Below are positions 2,804-49,910 of a DNA stretch of 64,000 bases, one piece after another. Source of the DNA: Anaerolineaceae bacterium (GTDB lineage Bacteria > Chloroflexota > Anaerolineae > Anaerolineales > Anaerolineaceae); contig JAJUGU010000005.1 of the NCBI GenBank assembly GCA_029265815.1, positions 124,001-188,000 on the forward strand, given 5' to 3'. The translations under genes were made by a program, and so were the position numbers. Within the stretch, counting starts at the first letter, position 1, and each line of letters begins with the position of its first letter. The notes under the pieces are model-generated. The model did not search any database and was not told the DNA's origin. It saw only the letters and a program-made list of their open reading frames with translations.

Positions 2804-4564
2804 TTATTCACTAAATATTCTGCGATACGCCTCGCTGGTTTGCATCAGCTCTTCATGCGTGCCAGAGGCTGCCAGCCTGCCATTCTTCACCACCAGGATG
2901 AGATCAGCCCAACGGATTTGTGAAAGGCGGTGCGTGATGATAAAAGTGGTACGTCCGCGCGCTGCTGCATAAATGGCACGCTGGATTTTATCTTCGGTGG
3001 CAGAGTCAATGGCGCTGGTTGAATCATCCAGCATCAGAATGCGCGGATCGGTCAAGAAAGCACGTGCCAGTGCCAGACGTTGGCGCTGCCCGCCTGAAAG
3101 AGTGATCCCGCGTTCGCCAATGACGGTATCGTACCCCTTTTCAAAAGACATAATGAAATCATGCGCCTGGGCGGCCATGGCTGCCGCCTCGATTTCTGAT
3201 CGTGTGGCACCGGGTTTCCCAAAGGCAATATTCTCAGCGATGGTGCGCGAGAAGAGAAAAATATCCTGCTCGATAATTGAGATGCTGCGCCGCAGGTTTT
3301 CAAGGTTCCATTCGCGTACGTCCACACCGTCCACCAGCACCTGCCCGCCAGTGACATCATAGGTGCGGTTGATCAACCTCACCAGCGAAGTCTTGCCCGA
3401 CCCTGTCTGCCCGACAATCGCCACGGTCTGACCGGGCTGAACATTGAAGCTCACGTTTTCAAGAACCGATTCTCCGCTTTCGTAGCGGAAAGTCACATTG
3501 CGGAACTCAACCTCCCCGCGTAATGGCCGCGCATACCCGCTGGTATTTTGATCAAGATTGTTTTCGCGGTTCATGACATCAAGGATGCGTTTCGCGCCCG
3601 CCAATCCGAGAGAGATGCGCGAATAAGCCCACAGCGACGCGAAGGTTGGAAAATCAAGCATCAACAGCAGACCAAAATAACCCACCACGCCGCCGATATC
3701 CACCAGCCCCTGACGGTAGAGAAGCAAAACGTGCAGCAATCCCGCGCCAAGCGCTACAGCGTAAAGCAGCATGGGCAGGAACCTGGCTTCCTTACGCCCC
3801 TGGGCAATGACCGCATCTTTATAGCGGATAACATTGCGCTTGAAGAGATCAATCTCACCGGTTTCCTGCGCAGATCCTTTAACCGTCTCGATTCCATCAA
3901 GGGATTCGTTCAAACGAATGTTGAGCCCGCCGAAAGATTCGCGCACTTCCTCGGTGATTGGGGCCAGCCCGCGCATGTAGATTTTGAGGGTGACGAAATA
4001 CAGCACAACAAAAATACACGGAACGAGCAGCAGCGATGGATGATAACGCGGTGCGTAGAGGATCGGAAAGACCAAAAAGGTCAGTGACCCCACAACCATG
4101 TTCAGCCCCGGGCTGAAGAGGAAGTTGACCTCACGCACGTCATTGGTGGCACGCGCCATCGTATCACCCACCGGCTGCAGGTTGTGAAATGTCATGCTCT
4201 TGCTGAGCAGGCTGGCGTATAACTCGCGGCGTACATTGCGCTCGATACGCTGCGCGCAGAACTCGAAGCCAAAGTTACGTGAAAATTGCAAAATCCCTCT
4301 GGCCACTCCAGCCGCGACAATGATCAAAAAGATTCTAAAAAGTGCGTTTGGATTAAACACCGGCGCAGAAACGACATTGAAAGCTTCGCCGACCTGCACC
4401 TGCCCGACAGCCATCAGCGCAGCGTTGCCAAAAGCACCAACAAGGGCGATGAGCAGGACCCACCACTGACGCAGGGAATGGGAAATGATCCAGCGCACGG
4501 GTGAGCGGCGGTCCGTTGTATATTGCGGGGGGATGGTGAATTCAGCAGTTGTTTCCTGTATCAT
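2804..4564 (-). CDS. ABC exporter half-transporter (TMD-NBD), subunit with degenerate Walker B
   Basis: First gene of the exporter pair. An N-terminal tail of about 35 residues precedes six membrane helices and an NBD with Walker A GQTGSGKTS, canonical signature LSGGQRQRLA and Walker B ILMLDDSTSAID. The residue after the Walker B Asp is Asp instead of the catalytic Glu, the hallmark of the inactive ATP site in heterodimeric exporters. The paired subunit (894-2720) carries the matching altered signature motif. The start is uncertain: ATG at 4564 is taken, but a GTG at 4585 is in frame and neither has a strong ribosome site. Inference: one unit with the downstream gene, exporting an unknown substrate. 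Confidence 0.9.
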   Translation of the reverse strand: MIQETTAEFTIPPQYTTDRRSPVRWIISHSLRQWWVLLIALVGAFGNAALMAVGQVQVGEAFNVVSAPVFNPNALFRIFLIIVAAGVARGILQFSRNFGFEFCAQRIERNVRRELYASLLSKSMTFHNLQPVGDTMARATNDVREVNFLFSPGLNMVVGSLTFLVFPILYAPRYHPSLLLVPCIFVVLYFVTLKIYMRGLAPITEEVRESFGGLNIRLNESLDGIETVKGSAQETGEIDLFKRNVIRYKDAVIAQGRKEARFLPMLLYAVALGAGLLHVLLLYRQGLVDIGGVVGYFGLLLMLDFPTFASLWAYSRISLGLAGAKRILDVMNRENNLDQNTSGYARPLRGEVEFRNVTFRYESGESVLENVSFNVQPGQTVAIVGQTGSGKTSLVRLINRTYDVTGGQVLVDGVDVREWNLENLRRSISIIEQDIFLFSRTIAENIAFGKPGATRSEIEAAAMAAQAHDFIMSFEKGYDTVIGERGITLSGGQRQRLALARAFLTDPRILMLDDSTSAIDSATEDKIQRAIYAAARGRTTFIITHRLSQIRWADLILVVKNGRLAASGTHEELMQTSEAYRRIFSE

Positions 4565-42512: not shown

Positions 42513-42524
42513 TTTGCCCCGACC

Positions 42525-42674
42525 CCTGAATGCAAGATTTTCACTTACGCCTGAAGGCAATATATGCACTCTTACCAGAAGGCAATTCTTGCATACTGGC
42601 CTGAAGGAATTATTTGCAATCTGGCCAGATGAAAAATTTTGCACCCCGGCCAGAGGGAATTGTTTGCCTTAAGG
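42525..42674. repeat. Iteron-like array: six 25-bp tandem repeats
   Basis: Six units of exactly 25 bases in unbroken register (starts 42525, 42550, 42575, 42600, 42625, 42650). Consensus: CC(T/A)GAAGG, an AT-rich core often reading AATT, TTGCA and (C)TGG. Units are imperfect (units 1, 5 and 6 most diverged), so this is not a CRISPR. No coding frame runs through it. The layout fits iterons bound by a replication initiator or centromere repeats bound by a partition protein; it lies downstream of the RHH-type and parA genes. Confidence 0.85.
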
Positions 42675-42791
42675 ACGCCGGAGTGCAAAAAATGTCAATC
42701 AGTTGAGTGCAGCCGCTGCACCTCTTCATGATGCAGAATTTGCACGTGATTCTATTCACTACTTAATTAACGACTTAAACGACTTAAGATC
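42675..42791. repeat. AT-rich / TGCA-palindrome stretch after the array
   Basis: Contains the perfect palindrome GTGCAG-CCG-CTGCAC (42707-42721) and the repeated ACGACTTAA block (about 42765-42795) with TTAAGATCTTAA. AT-rich repeats next to an iteron array are usual for replication origins. No gene fits here. Confidence 0.5.
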
Positions 42792-43190
42792 TTAACCACC
42801 CTTTTTCTTTTTACTAACAAACAGCATCTCTTCAGGAAAGATCAGGTTCCAGTCATAACGCGGACTGCGCGAGGGCTGTTTATATTTACCCAGATCAATA
42901 GTGCCTTTCTTGTATTCTGTTAAAAACCGTGACAAAGCCAGCGTCACCAGCTGCGATGCTGGCAGACGCAATTCTTCTGCAAGTACGCGGATTTCTTCGC
43001 GGATGGATGGCGGAAGATCGTACGTGGCGCGCAGATCGCGGCGCGATTGAATTTTTGCGCGTTCACGCGAGAGACGTTCGCGTTCTTTGCGTGGCAGCTG
43101 CGCTTCAGATTGTTTTTGCTGCATTCCCTTAAGCAGATCCGCCACTGCCGGGTCAAGCGTGGAACGCCGTTGAGTCTTTGATTCAGCCAT
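42792..43190 (-). CDS. Ribbon-helix-helix-type partition/DNA-binding partner of ParA
   Basis: 132 residues. The N-terminal half is charged and helical (KQSEAQLPRKERERLSRERAKIQSRRD); then LPPSIREEIRVLAEELRLPASQLVTLALSRFLTEY shows the strand-helix-helix pattern of RHH proteins (type Ib ParG/CopG-like). The tail is basic (KKKKGG). It overlaps the parA 43183-43953 by 8 bases, as partner genes do in par operons. It likely binds the nearby repeats and also represses the operon. The repeats at 44013-44109 are upstream of the operon and the 25-bp array lies just after this gene. Confidence 0.78.
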   Translation of the reverse strand: MAESKTQRRSTLDPAVADLLKGMQQKQSEAQLPRKERERLSRERAKIQSRRDLRATYDLPPSIREEIRVLAEELRLPASQLVTLALSRFLTEYKKGTIDLGKYKQPSRSPRYDWNLIFPEEMLFVSKKKKGG

Positions 43191-43953
43191 TGATCACCTC
43201 GATCATTTTTTCAAGCACCTGATGGTATCCGCCAAGATGCTGCCGACCTTCGATAAAACCCTGGATCGAAGACGATTCAGGAGAATAATCCCACAGTGTT
43301 TTGCCATAAGCAGCGGTTTCTCGCACCCGCGTATCCTGCGGAATCGGCGGCCAAACACTGGCCCCGAAGACGCGGGTAATCTCCTCGAACTGCAGCAGAG
43401 TCTCGCGCGTGGTGCGGTCAAAGAATGTGGGCAGAATACTGTAACCACGGTAACGATGTCCATTGCGGCTGATCTCGGCCATGGTGGTCAGGATCTCCTT
43501 TACCCCATCGACAGCCAGCGCATCCAAACGGGTGGGAATCACCACCCAGTCGGCCGCGATCAAACCGTTAATGTGCAGCACATCCAGCGAGGGCGCCATA
43601 TCGAGCAGCACCACCTCGTAATCTGATCCGCGCAGCAGGTCGATGAGAATTGTTTCCCGAAAGTCAGAGAGCGTGATCTGCCGTTTCACCTTCTCGGTCA
43701 GCTTGTCACCTGCAACCAGATCAAGGTTTGGGCGCACGGACTGAACGACTTCTGGCAGAGTTTCATCCAGACAGATCAGGCGGTAGAGACCGGGCGACTT
43801 TTCTAAACCAAAGGAAAGCGCCAGGTGCCCCTGCGGATCGAGATCGACCAGCAGGGTGCGCTTCCCTCTGCGCGCCAGACCGTCACCCAGCGTCACCGCT
43901 GTGGTGGTCTTTCCCACACCGCCTTTTTGATTGGCAAAGGCAAAAATGATCAT
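43183..43953 (-). CDS. ParA-family partition ATPase (MinD/Soj type)
   Basis: 256 residues from the ATG at 43953, preceded by AAAGGAG; a longer frame to 44046 is unsupported. The deviant Walker A is MIIFAFANQKGGVGKTTTAV; TLLVDLDPQGHLALSFG (A' box), VVLLDMAPSLD (Walker B) and DWVVIPTRLDALAVDGV follow. There is no N-terminal DNA-binding domain, so it is of the Soj/type Ib kind. The enzyme forms ATP-driven patterns on the nucleoid that position cargo DNA. It is coupled to the RHH-type gene 42792-43190. A second ParA is encoded at 46580-47428. Confidence 0.93.
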   Translation of the reverse strand: MIIFAFANQKGGVGKTTTAVTLGDGLARRGKRTLLVDLDPQGHLALSFGLEKSPGLYRLICLDETLPEVVQSVRPNLDLVAGDKLTEKVKRQITLSDFRETILIDLLRGSDYEVVLLDMAPSLDVLHINGLIAADWVVIPTRLDALAVDGVKEILTTMAEISRNGHRYRGYSILPTFFDRTTRETLLQFEEITRVFGASVWPPIPQDTRVRETAAYGKTLWDYSPESSSIQGFIEGRQHLGGYHQVLEKMIEVING

Positions 43954-44012
43954 GCGCGAACTCCTTTGCTGCAGCGTTGATGGTGAAGCGGCATTTCCCC
44001 GCAATAGCCCAA

Positions 44013-44109
44013 TCAAGGGTCGCCTCTGCAAATTATATAGGGTCACCCCTTGAAAATCAAGGGTCGCCCCTGGAATACTGCATCTGATACTGACAGGGTC
44101 ACCCCTTGA
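44013..44109. repeat. Four direct repeats AGGGTC(G/A)CC(C/T)CT upstream of parA
   Basis: Copies start at 44016, 44039, 44060 and 44095, all in the same orientation. Copies 1 and 3 carry TCA on the left; copies 2 and 4 carry TTGA on the right, so flanks alternate and each site is half of a TCAAGGG..CCCTTGA palindrome. They lie 60-155 bases before the ATG at 43953, where operator or centromere sites of type Ib par operons occur. The rest of 43954-44333 is non-coding. Confidence 0.8.
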
Positions 44110-44227: not shown

Positions 44228-44333
44228 GTTTAGAGAGGGCTGCTGCGAATTGTATAATGGATAAGAACCATCACAAAGAAAGTCAAGCGCCGCGTAAAAG
44301 CCGGTGATATTCTTTCATGGTCAGGGAGAAAGC

Positions 44334-45239
44334 ATGGATCGTCTGGAAAACATCGATGCGGTGGAGCGGATGCAGTCCTATATCGAGAGCCACTTGAAAG
44401 GCAGTATCACCCTTCATCAACTGGCAGTCGCAGCAGGGTATTCGCCATGGCATGCTGCAAAGATATTTAAGGAACTGACGGGCAAGAGTCCCTTCGAATA
44501 CATCCGCCTCCTGCGGCTGTCTCGAGCAGCGGTCAGGCTGCGGGAAGAAGACGTCAAGATCGTAGACGTGGCTTTTGATTTTGTTTTCGATTCTCACGAG
44601 GGCTTCACCCGCGCGTTTTCAAAGCAATTTGGGTTAACTCCACAAAATTACATCCGATATAAAACTCCCGTGAAGCTGTTTCTTCCAGAACCCATCCGTG
44701 AAAAATACCTCGCCCTGGAAAGAGGAGAAATTAAAATGACAGAAACTCAAAAAACAAACACGATCTTTGTTCAGGTGGTTGACCGGCCGGCCAGAAAATT
44801 GATCATAAAGCGCGGTATAAAAGCAGCCGATTACTACGCCTACTGCGAGGAAGTGGGCTGTGAGGTTTGGAATGTGCTCAGCAGTATCAAGCAGGCTGTC
44901 AATGAACCGATCGGCATGTGGCTGCCGGAGAACCTGCGCAGACCCGGCACGTCCATCTATGCACAGGGTGTCGAAGTACCGCTGAATTATTCCGGCCCTG
45001 TTCCCGAGGGTTTCGAATTGACCGAACTCCCCGCCTGTAAGATGATGATCTTTCAGGGACCACCGTATGATGATGCCGATTTCGAAGAAGCGATCAGCAG
45101 TCTGTGGGAGACGATCAAAAATTACAGGCCGGAGATCTATGGTTTCCGGTGGGCAGATGAAGACGGACCGCGTTTTCAACTCGCGCCTCAGGGCTACCGG
45201 GGGTACATCGAAGGGCGGCCGGTCAGACCCTTAAACTAA
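44334..45239 (+). CDS. AraC-family regulator with GyrI-like effector domain
   Basis: 301 residues from the ATG at 44334 (AGGGAG upstream). Two AraC-type helix-turn-helices come first (LHQLAVAAGYSPWHAAKIFKELTGKSPFEYIRLLRL; VDVAFDFVFDSHEGFTRAFSKQFGLTPQNY), then a GyrI-like binding domain (TIFVQVVDRPARKLIIKRG...YYAYCEEVGCEVW, PEGFELTELPACKMMIFQGPPY). This order matches Rob/SoxS-like multidrug regulators with a ligand domain. It sits as an extra gene between the RHH-ParA pair and the ParB/ParA pair. Confidence 0.9.
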   Translation: MDRLENIDAVERMQSYIESHLKGSITLHQLAVAAGYSPWHAAKIFKELTGKSPFEYIRLLRLSRAAVRLREEDVKIVDVAFDFVFDSHEGFTRAFSKQFGLTPQNYIRYKTPVKLFLPEPIREKYLALERGEIKMTETQKTNTIFVQVVDRPARKLIIKRGIKAADYYAYCEEVGCEVWNVLSSIKQAVNEPIGMWLPENLRRPGTSIYAQGVEVPLNYSGPVPEGFELTELPACKMMIFQGPPYDDADFEEAISSLWETIKNYRPEIYGFRWADEDGPRFQLAPQGYRGYIEGRPVRPLN

Positions 45240-45422: not shown

Positions 45423-46565
45423 TCAATTGTGATCGAGGCGGGCGCGGATCAGGCGGGCGAGTTCCTCAAGGAAGGTTAATGCTTCCTTACCGCCGCCTTT
45501 GACCACCAGGGTGTCGGCGATTTCATCCAGTGCCTGGTCCTGTCCTTTGCGGTCCAGTTCGCTGAGGGTCTGCACGAAGCGCCTCAGGGAGCGCGCCGCC
45601 TGGCGGCCGGGTTCGGGAAGGATGGGAGTAGAGGCGCGTCTGGGAAGCACGGTCTCATTCTGCGGGGGGACGGCAATTTCTGCAACTTCTTCTGATGTGA
45701 GCTGGTTCTGAATGCTGAGCCTGATCATGCGTTCCCACTGATCGCGGGGCGATGAAAGGATTTCGCGCAGCACTCGTTCAGAAAGGCGGTAGCGGTCAGC
45801 CAGGTCGAGCTGCGAACTGGGCAATTGAAGGATGTTGAGCAGCTGCACCATGCGCGGACGGGTCAGTTGCATGATAGGGATCAGGCGGTCCCACAGACCG
45901 GTGGGCATGCGCTGGGTGCGGGCGATGCGAAAGAAATCGTAATCATCGGTCACGTCAGATTCGGGTTCGATGCCGAGTTCAGCGAGGATCAGAGAAGCCA
46001 CTTCACACGCCTGCTCTACAGCTGAAGGCGGTTCGGCGTGGCGGTTTTCGAGCACCTGACGCTGGCGGGTGGGCTTTTCGACCACCTCAACGCGCAGCAG
46101 GGGTTCGTCTTCAGCGCCAGAAGAAGCGTACTGCAGGCAGGCAGCCCAAAAGCGCCGCTCACCGGTTTCGATCTGAAACACATATTCGCCGTTTGTGTTC
46201 AGTACCCATTTGCCGGTAATGGATTTGATTTGACCATGCTCTTCAAAAGAAGAACCCATGGCCAGCAGGCGGTCGATTTCCTGCGCAGTACCGGGGTCTG
46301 AGCGTGCCAGGGCCAGCCATTCCATGGCTGCCTGGTAGCAGTTGATTGAACCGGAGAAAAAAGCCGCTCTGATCTCGGCGGGCAGCAGGCGGCGCGGCTG
46401 AAAGCGATCCGGCTGCATCTGGCTGGGTTTAAGGCGTTCGATGCGTTCCACCGCAGGGGCAATCTGGACGACTTGCGATGGAATAACCGGGGGTTGAATT
46501 TTCGGCTGTTCACTGCCGTTTGAATTCAGATCCTCAAATGCGCTGTACCTTTTTTTGGCTGGCAT
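45423..46565 (-). CDS. ParB-like partition protein
   Basis: 380 residues, start ATG with AAGGA. N-terminal low-complexity and Pro-rich (~40 residues), then the ParB/Srx-type domain with ERLKPSQMQPDRFQPRR, GSSFEEHGQIKSITGKWV and the CTP-binding box ETGERRFWAACLQYAS. A region of ~45 residues lies between the first and second boxes, larger than in chromosomal ParB. The helix-turn-helix-type middle (MPTGLWDRLIPIMQLTRPRMVQLLNILQLP) and C-terminal helices follow. It forms an operon with parA 46580-47428 (14 bases between). Likely targets are the 22-bp palindromes nearby. Confidence 0.88.
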   Translation of the reverse strand: MPAKKRYSAFEDLNSNGSEQPKIQPPVIPSQVVQIAPAVERIERLKPSQMQPDRFQPRRLLPAEIRAAFFSGSINCYQAAMEWLALARSDPGTAQEIDRLLAMGSSFEEHGQIKSITGKWVLNTNGEYVFQIETGERRFWAACLQYASSGAEDEPLLRVEVVEKPTRQRQVLENRHAEPPSAVEQACEVASLILAELGIEPESDVTDDYDFFRIARTQRMPTGLWDRLIPIMQLTRPRMVQLLNILQLPSSQLDLADRYRLSERVLREILSSPRDQWERMIRLSIQNQLTSEEVAEIAVPPQNETVLPRRASTPILPEPGRQAARSLRRFVQTLSELDRKGQDQALDEIADTLVVKGGGKEALTFLEELARLIRARLDHN

Positions 46566-46579
46566 AAGCGATTCCTTTT

Positions 46580-47428
46580 TCAGGTACGTCCGTTGGTACC
46601 CGTTTTCATGAGCACAATGTCGATCAGGCTGGCGTATTCCCGGGTGGCGCGTGAACTGGAAGCGATATTATCAGCACTGCGGATGCGCGGCGGGCGGTAG
46701 GTGAAAACATCCATGTGGCTGGAATGGGCATAAGCCAGGTCGGATGCTTTATGGATTGGCGGCAGGATCATTTGTTTGTAACGGCTCTGCAGTTCGGCCA
46801 GGATTTCCTGCGCCTCGCTGCGCTGCTCTTCGCACAGGGTCGGCAGGTACCCCATGATCTTCAGATCAGGTTTGAAATGCGTCTGCACCTGTTCGATCGT
46901 GCGCTGCAATTCGATCAGGCCCGACACCCCCAGATAAGAAGTCTCGACAGGCACGATGACCTGGTCGGCAGCGACAAGCGCGTTGATGAGCAGGTCGCCC
47001 GTGTTTGGGGGAGTATCGATGACGATGTAAGCGTACTCAGACTGCACGGCAGAAAGTGCGCGCAGCAGGCGGGTTTCATTCGCCATCAAAGAAGGCAGCT
47101 CGCGTGCCGCCCGAATCATGGCGGCGCGGTCTGAAGGAACATAGAAAAGGTTGGGGTGATATTCACTGCGCTGGATCAAGCGCTGGATCGAAGGCGGGGG
47201 AGTCTCGGTCAGCAGGGTTGCCAGAGAGACCGGGAAACTCATCTGGTGTTTGTCGTATCCGATTGCCAGCAGGGCGTGCACCTGGGGGTCCATATCCACA
47301 AGCAGTACACGGCTTCGGGTGGCGGGTTCATCAACCAGGCGCAGCGCTAGCCCGGCGGCGAGGTTCACGGCGGTGGTGGTCTTGCCTACCCCGCCTTTTT
47401 CATTCGCAATCGTGATGGTAATGGCCAT
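46580..47428 (-). CDS. ParA-family partition ATPase
   Basis: 282 residues. AITITIANEKGGVGKTTTAVNLAAGL is the deviant Walker A; VLLVDMDPQVHALLAIGYD, YIVIDTPPNTGDLLINALVAADQVIVPV and the later RIRSADNIASSSRATREYA complete the Soj/ParA pattern. It is distinct from the ParA at 43183-43953 and coupled to the ParB gene. It has the role of a dedicated DNA-segregation motor with ParB. The region upstream has TTTGGGTGA / TCACCCAAA arms, candidates for autoregulation. Confidence 0.94.
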   Translation of the reverse strand: MAITITIANEKGGVGKTTTAVNLAAGLALRLVDEPATRSRVLLVDMDPQVHALLAIGYDKHQMSFPVSLATLLTETPPPSIQRLIQRSEYHPNLFYVPSDRAAMIRAARELPSLMANETRLLRALSAVQSEYAYIVIDTPPNTGDLLINALVAADQVIVPVETSYLGVSGLIELQRTIEQVQTHFKPDLKIMGYLPTLCEEQRSEAQEILAELQSRYKQMILPPIHKASDLAYAHSSHMDVFTYRPPRIRSADNIASSSRATREYASLIDIVLMKTGTNGRT

Positions 47429-47637: not shown

Positions 47638-48456
47638 ATGGGCGATTTGATGAACGACGACGAGTGGCGCCTGGTTCGCATGGACCGCCTGGGGCTGAAG
47701 GAAGATCCTTTCAAACTCTCAGCCGATCCGCGTTATCTCTATCTCGGGCCTGAACACCTGGCCGTCTATCGGCAGGCGCAGGGTGTGATTTCGCGCCGGC
47801 GCGGCCTGGCGTTGATCACGGGAGATATGGGAATGGGCAAGAGTTCGCTCGCACGGCGGCTCTATGACGTATACGCCTCCGAAGAAGCGGTGGATATCTG
47901 TTATATCCACACCGCTGCTTTTAAGTCTGCGATGGATGCAGCACGGCAGATCTCGCAGAACCTGGGGGTACCGCCGCAGCGCTCATTCCAGCGCCAGATG
48001 GAGGGGCTGGAAAAATTCATGGCCGATGCCTATACCTCAAATCACAACGTCATCGTTCTACTGGATGACGCGCAGTTGATGGAACCAGAAGCGCTGGAAG
48101 TGTTGCACCGCCTCTACAATTTTGATTACGATGCCAAGGTGGTGCAGGTGCTCGCCTTCGGACAATCTGAAATGCAGGCTGTTTTCGAGACCAATAAACC
48201 CGTCAATTCGCGCGTTTTTGTCCGCCTGGCCCTGCCGCCCCTAACGCTCTCCAGCGCACTCCAGATGGTTCTCTTCCGCCTGCGCGTTGCGGGCCGATCC
48301 GAACCGCTCATTAATGACGATGCGTTTGAAGTCCTCTACGAAAAATCCCAGGGCGTGCCGCGTGAGATCATCCGCCTGTGCGCCCTCTCGATGGATCACC
48401 TGTTGGAAAGCGATGAATCCATGATCAATATTGAAAATGCTCGAAAGGTGAACTGA
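47638..48456 (+). CDS. ExeA/TniB-like AAA ATPase
   Basis: 272 residues with GGAGGATTT upstream. The N-terminus LGLKEDPFKLSADPRYLYLGPEHLAVYRQ is the standard ExeA-like opening ('F..tPDP.FL...H..AL'). Walker A GDMGMGKSSLARRL, Walker B NVIVLLDDAQLM, sensor-like QVLAFGQSEM and a C-terminal lid (NDDAFEVLYEKSQGVPREIIRLC) follow. Such ATPases serve type II secretion (ExeA), transposon target choice (TniB/MuB) or plasmid functions. No transposase is near, and it is followed two bases later by the 48459 gene, then a DnaA-domain protein, so a role in DNA handling is more likely than secretion. Confidence 0.85.
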   Translation: MGDLMNDDEWRLVRMDRLGLKEDPFKLSADPRYLYLGPEHLAVYRQAQGVISRRRGLALITGDMGMGKSSLARRLYDVYASEEAVDICYIHTAAFKSAMDAARQISQNLGVPPQRSFQRQMEGLEKFMADAYTSNHNVIVLLDDAQLMEPEALEVLHRLYNFDYDAKVVQVLAFGQSEMQAVFETNKPVNSRVFVRLALPPLTLSSALQMVLFRLRVAGRSEPLINDDAFEVLYEKSQGVPREIIRLCALSMDHLLESDESMINIENARKVN

Positions 48457-48458
48457 TT

Positions 48459-48788
48459 ATGGCGTCTTTACAAAACCCGAACAGGAATGCCTGGGTGCAG
48501 CTTTACGAAGCCCGGCGCGTCCCCAATGAGCCAGAAGTGCGCTCTCCCGGACGCCCTCCCGGCATCGTTCCCCGCCGTAAGGTTGGTCTGACTCTCTCTC
48601 AGGGTGAGATCACCGAACTTGAAAACTGGCGTGAGCGATTCTCGCGAATGCTCCACCGTTCTGTTTCAGCCGGTGAGACGGTGGGAATCTTAACACGCAT
48701 CTGCACTGCCCGCTTTGCCCGTATGAAAGATGAAGAAGGAATGGAAGCGCTGGCGGCGCTGGTTGAACGCCTGGTAGGTGAGGAGTGA
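48459..48788 (+). CDS. Small basic DNA-binding-like protein (RHH-like)
   Basis: 109 residues. The N-terminal part has SPGRPPG (AT-hook-like GRP core) followed by PRRKVGLTLSQGEITELENWRERFSRMLHRSVSAGETVGILTRICTARF, which fits a strand plus two helices as in RHH proteins. Unknown function. It starts two bases after the ExeA-like gene's stop, so the two are co-translated. It ends before an AT-rich stretch that carries the promoter of the DnaA-domain gene. Confidence 0.72.
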   Translation: MASLQNPNRNAWVQLYEARRVPNEPEVRSPGRPPGIVPRRKVGLTLSQGEITELENWRERFSRMLHRSVSAGETVGILTRICTARFARMKDEEGMEALAALVERLVGEE

Positions 48789-48879
48789 ATATTTTCTACC
48801 CAAAAATAACTTGTTTAATGGTAGAAAAAAATATGGGTAAAAAATGAAAATGCTGCATGGCCTGAAAAAAATTAGATAC

Positions 48880-48989: not shown

Positions 48990-49910
48990 ATGGATCAAAG
49001 CGTGAAGGGTCATTCAATCGGATTTGAAAAACCAGATTACCAGCAAGCCTGGGAAATGGTTTTAGGCGACCTGCGGGCAGAAATGTCCAGAGCGCTTTAT
49101 GAAACCTGGGTTCAGCCGCTGCGCCCGGTTGGATACCAGAACAAGACCTTTACGGTTGGAGCTTACAACACCTACGGCCGTGCATGGGTTGAGGAACGAC
49201 TGAGCGCGCGCATTACGAGACTGCTTGAGGGGATGTACGGTGAACCGGTGAAATTCAATGTTGTGGTCTCTAACGGTTTTTACAGGCCGGGCGATAGAGC
49301 GGGTGAAGGGGTTACCCCCAGTAAAAAAGCTGTCCCGCAGGATATTAACGCCCGCGTGTCAGAGGTTAAGCCGGATCCGCTTTCTCTTGATGAAATAGAT
49401 GCCCGGGAGGTGATTGAAGAAACCGGCGGCGGGAATACTGCTTCAATCCGGTCGCGCAAGGTAATGCTGCAGCGCGCGTACGGCAGTGAGCGTGCCAAGT
49501 TGATCCAGCCGGAACGAGGCATGTTCGTCACCGGGTATTTCTTCAACAACTGGCTGCCGTTGTTGGGTCATTCAGCCTTTACCATTATCATGGCGGCGCG
49601 CTCGATGTGTTACTGGAACCCGATGACCGGCGAACTGCGCAATGTGGTCGAAACAGAAATGGGTGAAATTGCCGAGCGCGCAGCTGTTTCGGTGCGCACG
49701 GTAAAAGACGTGCTGAACGCCGAACTGGTGCAGCGCTACTTCCTGCGCTACCGGGTGCGCCGCGTGATGACGTCCAACGGCGTGCGCACGGCCGGCATCA
49801 GCCTGCAGGTGCGCATGGACGATCCACTGACGCCGCTCGACCAGGTGAAAACCGGTTTAATGGAAGAAGAGGAATGGTACCTGCCTGAATTTTCGGGGGA
49901 AAAGGAATAA
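48990..49910 (+). CDS. DnaA domain I-like / winged-helix replication-initiator candidate
   Basis: 306 residues. Residues ~14-95 fit DnaA domain I closely: WEMVLGDLRAEMSRALYETWVQPLRP, then FTVGAYNTYGRAWVEERLSARITRLLEGMYGEPVKFNVVVS (E. coli: W..CL..L......F..WI.PL). After a linker, residues ~170-270 form a helix-turn-helix-like region (VVETEMGEIAERAAVSVRTVKDVLNAELVQRYFLRY). There is no AAA+ domain, so this is not DnaA itself. It is the best initiator candidate for the iteron array 6 kb away. A DnaA domain I tail could recruit DnaB or DnaA. Confidence 0.75.
   Translation: MDQSVKGHSIGFEKPDYQQAWEMVLGDLRAEMSRALYETWVQPLRPVGYQNKTFTVGAYNTYGRAWVEERLSARITRLLEGMYGEPVKFNVVVSNGFYRPGDRAGEGVTPSKKAVPQDINARVSEVKPDPLSLDEIDAREVIEETGGGNTASIRSRKVMLQRAYGSERAKLIQPERGMFVTGYFFNNWLPLLGHSAFTIIMAARSMCYWNPMTGELRNVVETEMGEIAERAAVSVRTVKDVLNAELVQRYFLRYRVRRVMTSNGVRTAGISLQVRMDDPLTPLDQVKTGLMEEEEWYLPEFSGEKE

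Follow-up and report, generated by a model that had tools for sequence, protein, structure and literature searches.

Iteron origins such as those of RK2, R6K, P1, F and pSC101 are built from tandem repeats in strict register, which lie by an AT-rich block with short repeats of its own, and in RK2 the iterons adjoin this block (PMC4980987). The same arrangement was found in the window, by which we mean the whole stretch of 64,000 nucleotides that was analysed (positions 124001-188000 of the 188,049-bp contig C1, from a genome of 2.58 Mb in 26 contigs), and here too a candidate initiator is encoded on the same plasmid. However, the array differs from these origins in its unit of 25 bp, compared with 17-22 bp in well-studied examples (PMC4980987 also mentions units of up to 76 bp), in the addition of three palindromic sites at 24 bp, in the absence of an exact DnaA box, and in an initiator of other domain make-up whose gene lies about 5-20 kb away. 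Our reading, which we hold to be likely, is that the array forms the central part of an iteron-type replication origin (oriV) that serves a family of large plasmids in Anaerolineaceae, a group of bacteria from soil and sludge, with the product of the gene at 48990 (48990 protein) as putative initiator. This kind of origin is itself known, and what is new here is the domain make-up of the initiator, the order of two classes of sites and their separable placement.

Three further described systems are close to this locus. RepA_N-type plasmid initiators, which we take 4pql, 4pt7 and 5kbj to be, align over about 100 residues with the winged helix of the 48990 protein. Unlike them, the 48990 protein has no RepA_N Pfam match (E up to 0.1) and carries an N-terminal DnaA domain I, its structural scores of Z about 7 are tied with those of other winged helices, and the array is located outside the rep gene. 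Chromosomal origins with DnaA boxes and DnaA-trios (PMC8287927) share with the locus the domain I of the protein and the succession of repeated double-strand sites and a short-repeat AT-rich element, and ACTACT would read as GAT-like trios on the other strand. In contrast, the 48990 protein shows no detected AAA+ domain and has another DNA-binding domain, exact DnaA boxes are absent from the array, and its AT-rich repeats are of about 10-12 bp instead of consecutive trinucleotides. Finally, type Ib ParA-RHH systems (TP228 ParF/ParG, pSM19035) have their counterpart in a ParA1-RHH operon with promoter repeats in the cassette, but the array lies 3' of this operon, is kept where no RHH gene is detectable and has a motif different from that of the promoter repeats.

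Structure and conservation of the array

The 25-bp register is unbroken over six units of the forward strand (42523-42672), whose consensus across relatives is approximately GGCCWGNRKGCAAAWTTTKCMYTCW. The initial annotation had described six iterons in perfect register at 42525-42674, and this was borne out with a 2-bp shift. Self-identity over 42520-42674 was 65% at lags of both 25 and 50, against 37% at lag 24 and 29% at lag 26. The best lag-25 window gave 84 matching pairs out of 125, the top value for all lags between 10 and 79 in the 64 kb, compared with a maximum of 61/125 in 30 first-order Markov sequences of the window. The array was also detected by TRF, as periods of 25 and 50, and no second region of the window equals its periodicity. 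A spacing of 25 bp corresponds to 2.4 helical turns (25/10.5), and the spiral of bound proteins round the DNA that the initial annotation envisaged is a matter of this arithmetic.

After unit 6 the register shifts, with a step of 28 bp to the start of unit 7 (42676-42700, forward strand) and two further steps of 24 bp each to units 8 and 9 (42700-42748, forward strand), which end in CACGTG. The cores of these last two units are GTGCAGCCGCTGCAC (42707-42721) and ATGCAGAATTTGCAC (42731-42745), both on the forward strand; unit 8, whose degenerate centre falls below the cut-off of the matrix described below, was counted by its position and its intact GTGCA-N5-TGCAC arms. The array in the window therefore totals six 25-bp units plus three 24-bp-spaced units on GTGCA-N5-TGCAC, followed by AT-rich AACKACTYTTAA-like repeats. 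The initial annotation had listed six units and then a TGCA palindrome and TTAA-rich repeats. Both elements exist, but its number of units was too low: the palindrome is unit 8 of the array, and the TTAA-rich repeats are the block immediately 3' of unit 9, which recurs in relatives. This block, formed by ATTC and the AACKACTYTTAA-like repeats (42749-42787, forward strand), is a candidate unwinding element that would melt during initiation. The stretch 3' of unit 9 is 72% AT and is also kept in loci without the RHH gene.

The same order was found in relatives, where 25-bp units are followed by a step of 28 or 29 bp (27 bp in a few) and then by 24-bp units with GTGCA-N5-TGCAC cores; L230 is the exception that lacks the wider step before unit 7. 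Their last unit leads into CACGTG or a sequence close to it; ATTC or TTTC comes next, and AT-rich repeats such as ACTACTTAATTAACGACTTAA follow. A position weight matrix was built from the array regions of the window and 17 relatives (18 loci, 16 of which yielded units), and a 90-position sequence model of the last 90 bp of the module (R1) was used to survey 147 Anaerolineaceae genomes. The R1 model matched 40 of these; the weakest match (G143, E 8.4e-4), which has no array, was excluded, leaving 39 module genomes. The array's own matrix, trained on 16 of the loci, confirmed it in 37 of the 39, a count in which the G174 and G177 contigs were left out and five genomes and HRD-7 were matched to the surveyed genomes by gene coordinates. 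The module with its AT-rich block was present in 34 of the 36 loci compared (24 named loci, two misses and 10 loci from the surveyed genomes, some genomes being counted twice).

Among the 36 named loci the array was present in 23 and not seen in 13. In two of these 13, L232 and L235 (counterparts G174:C99 and G176:C5), the module and the initiator are about 19-20 kb apart. The remaining 11 (L207, L210, L211, L214-L217, L219, L227, L236 and L239) show no RHH gene, and the contig or stretch ends before that side or just beyond ParB. The first scan was empty for L058 and L063 because some 2 kb separate the array from the RHH gene there. In three genomes (G088, G090 and G131) the contig with the array, 5.2-12.2 kb long, bears none of the cassette genes. 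The array motif was not found in RHH or RHH-ParA relatives that lack the short initiator (L135, L136, L138, L141 and L144); L135 has a 24-bp repeat that looks like coding low complexity.

The cassette and its putative initiator

The cassette comprises RHH-ParA1, ParB-ParA2, an AAA_22 ATPase, the small protein p109 and the DnaA_N protein, and its gene order is kept in most relatives with long enough contigs. Named carriers of the 48990 gene belong to the Anaerolineaceae, Anaerolineae or Chloroflexi and include Ornatilinea apprima, Leptolinea tardivitalis and Longilinea arvoryzae. The proposed initiator (48990-49910, forward strand) consists of a DnaA domain I at residues ~17-93, a low-confidence linker (102-150) and a winged helix (~178-291). 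Domain I was identified by Pfam (PF11638, 42.9 bits), by profile search (E 1.3e-10) and by fold (4tps_B, Z 15.3 over 82 residues). The NCBIfam DnaA model covers only residues 21-103, and Pfam at E up to 0.1 gave DnaA_N, a weak LacI match and nothing else, with no match to the AAA+ domain III or to domain IV. PHROGs gave nothing useful for this protein. The winged helix is its most conserved part, and its best fold matches include the plasmid initiators 4pql_B (Z 7.4, 98 residues, 4.7 A), 4pt7_B (Z 7.1) and 5kbj (Z 6.7), tied with unrelated CRP/MarR-type proteins. A family call for the C-terminus from its fold was dropped, the structure matches being tied at Z 6.5-7.4.

Trp21 of the 48990 protein is invariant in 37 sequences and, by our own reading of the alignments, would be placed at Trp6 of E. 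coli DnaA, a dimerisation residue of domain I (PMC5448010). Helicase recruitment by the 48990 protein is something that we infer, because the helicase contact by domain I has, according to the same review, been demonstrated for E. coli only. The mechanism that we propose is that the 48990 protein would use its C-terminal winged helix to bind both the 25-bp iterons and the three 24-bp palindromic sites, and would open the adjacent AT-rich AACKACTYTTAA repeats, after which its domain I may recruit the replicative helicase with the help of the neighbouring AAA_22 ATPase. This ExeA-like ATPase (47638-48456, forward strand) could act as helicase loader or as AAA+ partner in trans. More tentatively, and as a possibility that we would not yet favour, the locus may represent a split DnaA replicon family, in which domain I sits on a winged-helix plasmid initiator, the AAA_22 ATPase provides the AAA+ engine in trans, and two ordered classes of sites (25-bp iterons and three 24-bp palindromes) point to an unwinding element built of repeats.

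The DnaA_N protein was found in 37 of the 147 genomes at E up to 1e-30, and 36 genomes have both the module and the gene; that is, the module occurs in 36 of 37 gene carriers and the gene in 36 of 39 module carriers. Relatives that keep the genes and lack the array had been named as part of what would refute the initial annotation. The module was not found in one of the 37 gene-bearing genomes, G017, where the 48990-type gene is on a 5,172-bp contig ending inside ParB. The module without an initiator match was seen in G006, G010 and G131. In the first two the contigs are 5.5 and 4.6 kb long and break off within ParA2 and ParB, respectively, and that of G131 (5.2 kb) holds no cassette genes.

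An origin of this type could instead have its iterons bound by p109 or by host DnaA, and not by the 48990 protein. The p109 gene (48459-48788, forward strand), between the ATPase and the initiator, encodes a protein that is ribbon-helix-helix-like by eye only. In 35 of the 36 named loci both this gene and the ATPase gene are next to the initiator; the exception is L210, whose contig starts 338 bp before the initiator. Help from DnaA is also common, as this protein assists many iteron plasmids (PMC4980987). However, no exact DnaA box (TTWTNCACA) was found at the array, and the fold of p109 is uncertain, with no usable match in a fold search, so either binder appears unlikely to us and the 48990 protein is still the preferred one.

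The start of the initiator gene is 6.2 kb from the array in the window and up to 20 kb elsewhere, whereas rep genes usually adjoin their own origin. The 230 bp that precede the initiator gene were scanned in 24 loci and contained no iteron-like site of at least 10 bits, so autoregulation of the kind usual for iteron Reps is not apparent. An inverted repeat (TTTCTACC..GGTAGAAA) was observed at 48790-48840, between p109 and the initiator gene, and also in several relatives; it is a possible autoregulation site.

Longer DnaA_N proteins were also encountered (L133, L134, L137, L139, L140 and L142). They are open frames of 570-777 aa whose later part resembles the winged helix of the initiator, with a ParA gene nearby, and one of them sits on a 4.1-Mb contig of G044. 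The array motif was not found at any of these six, which may represent a second class of replicon or element. In L133 (9690-9955) and L134 (near 12335) the downstream part of the long DnaA_N gene contains a 21-bp tandem repeat (TTGGCGCGANTGACACCNNTA-like). Its length equals exactly two helical turns and also seven codons, and the repeats are perhaps iterons inside a rep gene.

Partition genes in relation to the array

Two partition operons lie between the array and the ATPase gene, all on the reverse strand: the RHH-like gene (42792-43190), which adjoins the array in the window and whose product matches PF12651 at E 0.015, below the curated cut-off, in an operon with the ParA1 ATPase gene (43183-43956), and the divergent ParB gene (45423-46565) in an operon with that of the ParA2 ATPase (46580-47428). 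An AraC-family gene (44304-45239) lies between ParA1 and ParB; it was also seen in some close relatives (L204 and L129, and beside ParA1 in L130) and is absent from most cassettes.

The RHH-like protein had been proposed in the initial annotation as a possible binder of the array. On one alternative reading the array is the centromere of the ParA1-RHH partition system, with RHH bound to the repeats and ParA1 segregating the plasmid. The array is indeed less than 1 kb from the 3' end of the RHH gene in the window and in 14 of the 16 RHH-bearing relatives of the first set. At E up to 1e-22 the RHH protein was found in 36 genomes, 35 of them among the 39 with the module, and co-occurrence by itself does not tell it from the DnaA_N protein (35/39 versus 36/39). 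In addition, a centromere can sit near an origin, so the GC skew does not exclude it. However, the array is kept in four genomes where no RHH gene was detected, namely G015 and G023 (no match at E up to 1e-4) and G088 and G131 (no match at E up to 1e-22). The G015 genome is 100% complete, and one of its contigs bears the DnaA_N protein, p109, the ATPase, ParA2, ParB and the array; neither RHH nor ParA1 was matched in the interval that separates ParB from the array. The assemblies of the other three are 88-92% complete. A single contig of G176 holds all three elements, with the array 15 kb away from the RHH gene and 20 kb away from the initiator. Retention of RHH nearby is not needed for retention of the array.

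The ParA1-RHH operon also has repeats of its own. Four GGYGACCCT repeats are found upstream of ParA1 (44016-44103, reverse strand), with similar ones in relatives, and they are probably the type Ib operator/centromere of the RHH protein, given that in type Ib systems the centromere is described as lying upstream of the operon and its binding protein also acts as the repressor (PMC5016525). All 20 loci examined have at least one copy of GGYRACCC no more than 350 bp from the ParA1 start, and 18 of the 20 have at least two, compared with 2-18 copies in the whole stretches of 12.8-64 kb and no cluster in three loci without RHH. These promoter repeats are unrelated to the array. Because the array is kept without RHH or far from it, and because the ParA1-RHH promoter carries its own repeats, the array is unlikely to be the site of the RHH protein, and the proposal that it is the ParA1-RHH centromere retains little credibility.

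A parS or centromere of ParB-ParA2 is the least probable of the functions considered, and we see almost no chance for it. ParB, ParA2 or both are indeed present in most cassettes, but no ParB match was found, at E up to 1e-3, either in G025 (99% complete) or on the complete HRD-7 plasmid, and both have a full array.

Plasmid context and GC skew

In Leptolinea sp. HRD-7 the cassette is on a complete circular plasmid of 212,187 bp (AP024711). When 72,556 plasmid records were searched with the DnaA_N protein at E up to 1e-5, this was the only one that gave a match, and a search of 50,697 phage records found none. Longilinea arvoryzae (L231) has two contigs, the smaller of which (NZ_DF967973.1, 293,070 bp) bears the cassette. 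No tRNA genes were found on this contig or on contig C1. Neither C1 nor G044:C2 showed an exact end overlap (15-299 and 12-399 bases were tried), and circularity is unproved for either. Two other features of these replicons were recorded. Positions 32001-36000 of C1 (L005) are a 4-kb segment of 33% G+C, compared with mostly about 50% elsewhere on the contig, perhaps an insertion. On the HRD-7 plasmid, a type I-C CRISPR-Cas operon (L240 24327-32040, equal to AP024711 204327-212040) lies a few kb from the replication cassette.

On AP024711 the array has ten sites (191334-191584), and the cumulative GC skew has its minimum at 191076, which is 258 bp from the array, and its maximum at 79040. In the other six replicons the minimum was 926 bp (G012), 1453 bp (C1), 2149 bp (G026), 8935 bp (G044), 12170 bp (G033) and 68107 bp (G022) from the array; these six are contigs not known to be complete, G012 being its first 100 kb only, and the bias due to gene strand is left in the values. 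The minima are nearer to the array than random placement predicts (Fisher combined p 3.6e-5, seven replicons, none dropped), although skew is an indirect measure of where replication starts. The seven include two minima that are 9-12 kb off (G044 and G033) and that of G022, which misses wholly and does not fit. The detrended minimum of C1 is at 4453, in a near-tie with 168 kb. Judged by the largest skew jump, the change is located no more than about 4 kb from the array in G026, G012 and G022, at about 7 kb in G033 and at 24 kb in G044; this comparison leaves out C1, whose end is only 21 kb away from the array.

Being separable from the initiator gene, the array could also serve in copy-number control, as an inc (handcuffing) locus where the initiator is titrated, with the true start of replication elsewhere near the cassette. 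The incA iterons of plasmid P1 are likewise separable from the initiator gene. We regard this as very unlikely, because the array occupies a single place on each of the seven replicons scanned and thus no second iteron set marks another origin, because it carries the conserved AT-rich repeat block, and because the skew minima are closer to the array than to the initiator gene in all seven (trivially so in G022). The origin-like order of elements that the initial annotation had recognised is in turn supported by the conservation of the array with its AT-rich block, by the skew minima, including that of the complete plasmid, and by the co-occurrence with the DnaA-domain gene, which together favour an iteron origin, probably served by the 48990 protein.

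In the annotation of the HRD-7 plasmid the initiator, ATPase and p109 genes are given as hypothetical proteins, and PLSDB typing assigns it a mobility but no replicon type. A search of the open-access literature on plasmids, iterons and DnaA-domain initiators of Leptolinea, Chloroflexi/Chloroflexota, Anaerolineae and Anaerolineaceae gave no description of such a system among the matches listed. Once origin and initiator are defined, large Anaerolineaceae contigs could be identified as plasmids, and work on shuttle vectors in this family would have a starting point. A defined system of this kind would also put to the test the reuse of DnaA domain I as a stand-alone module for helicase recruitment.
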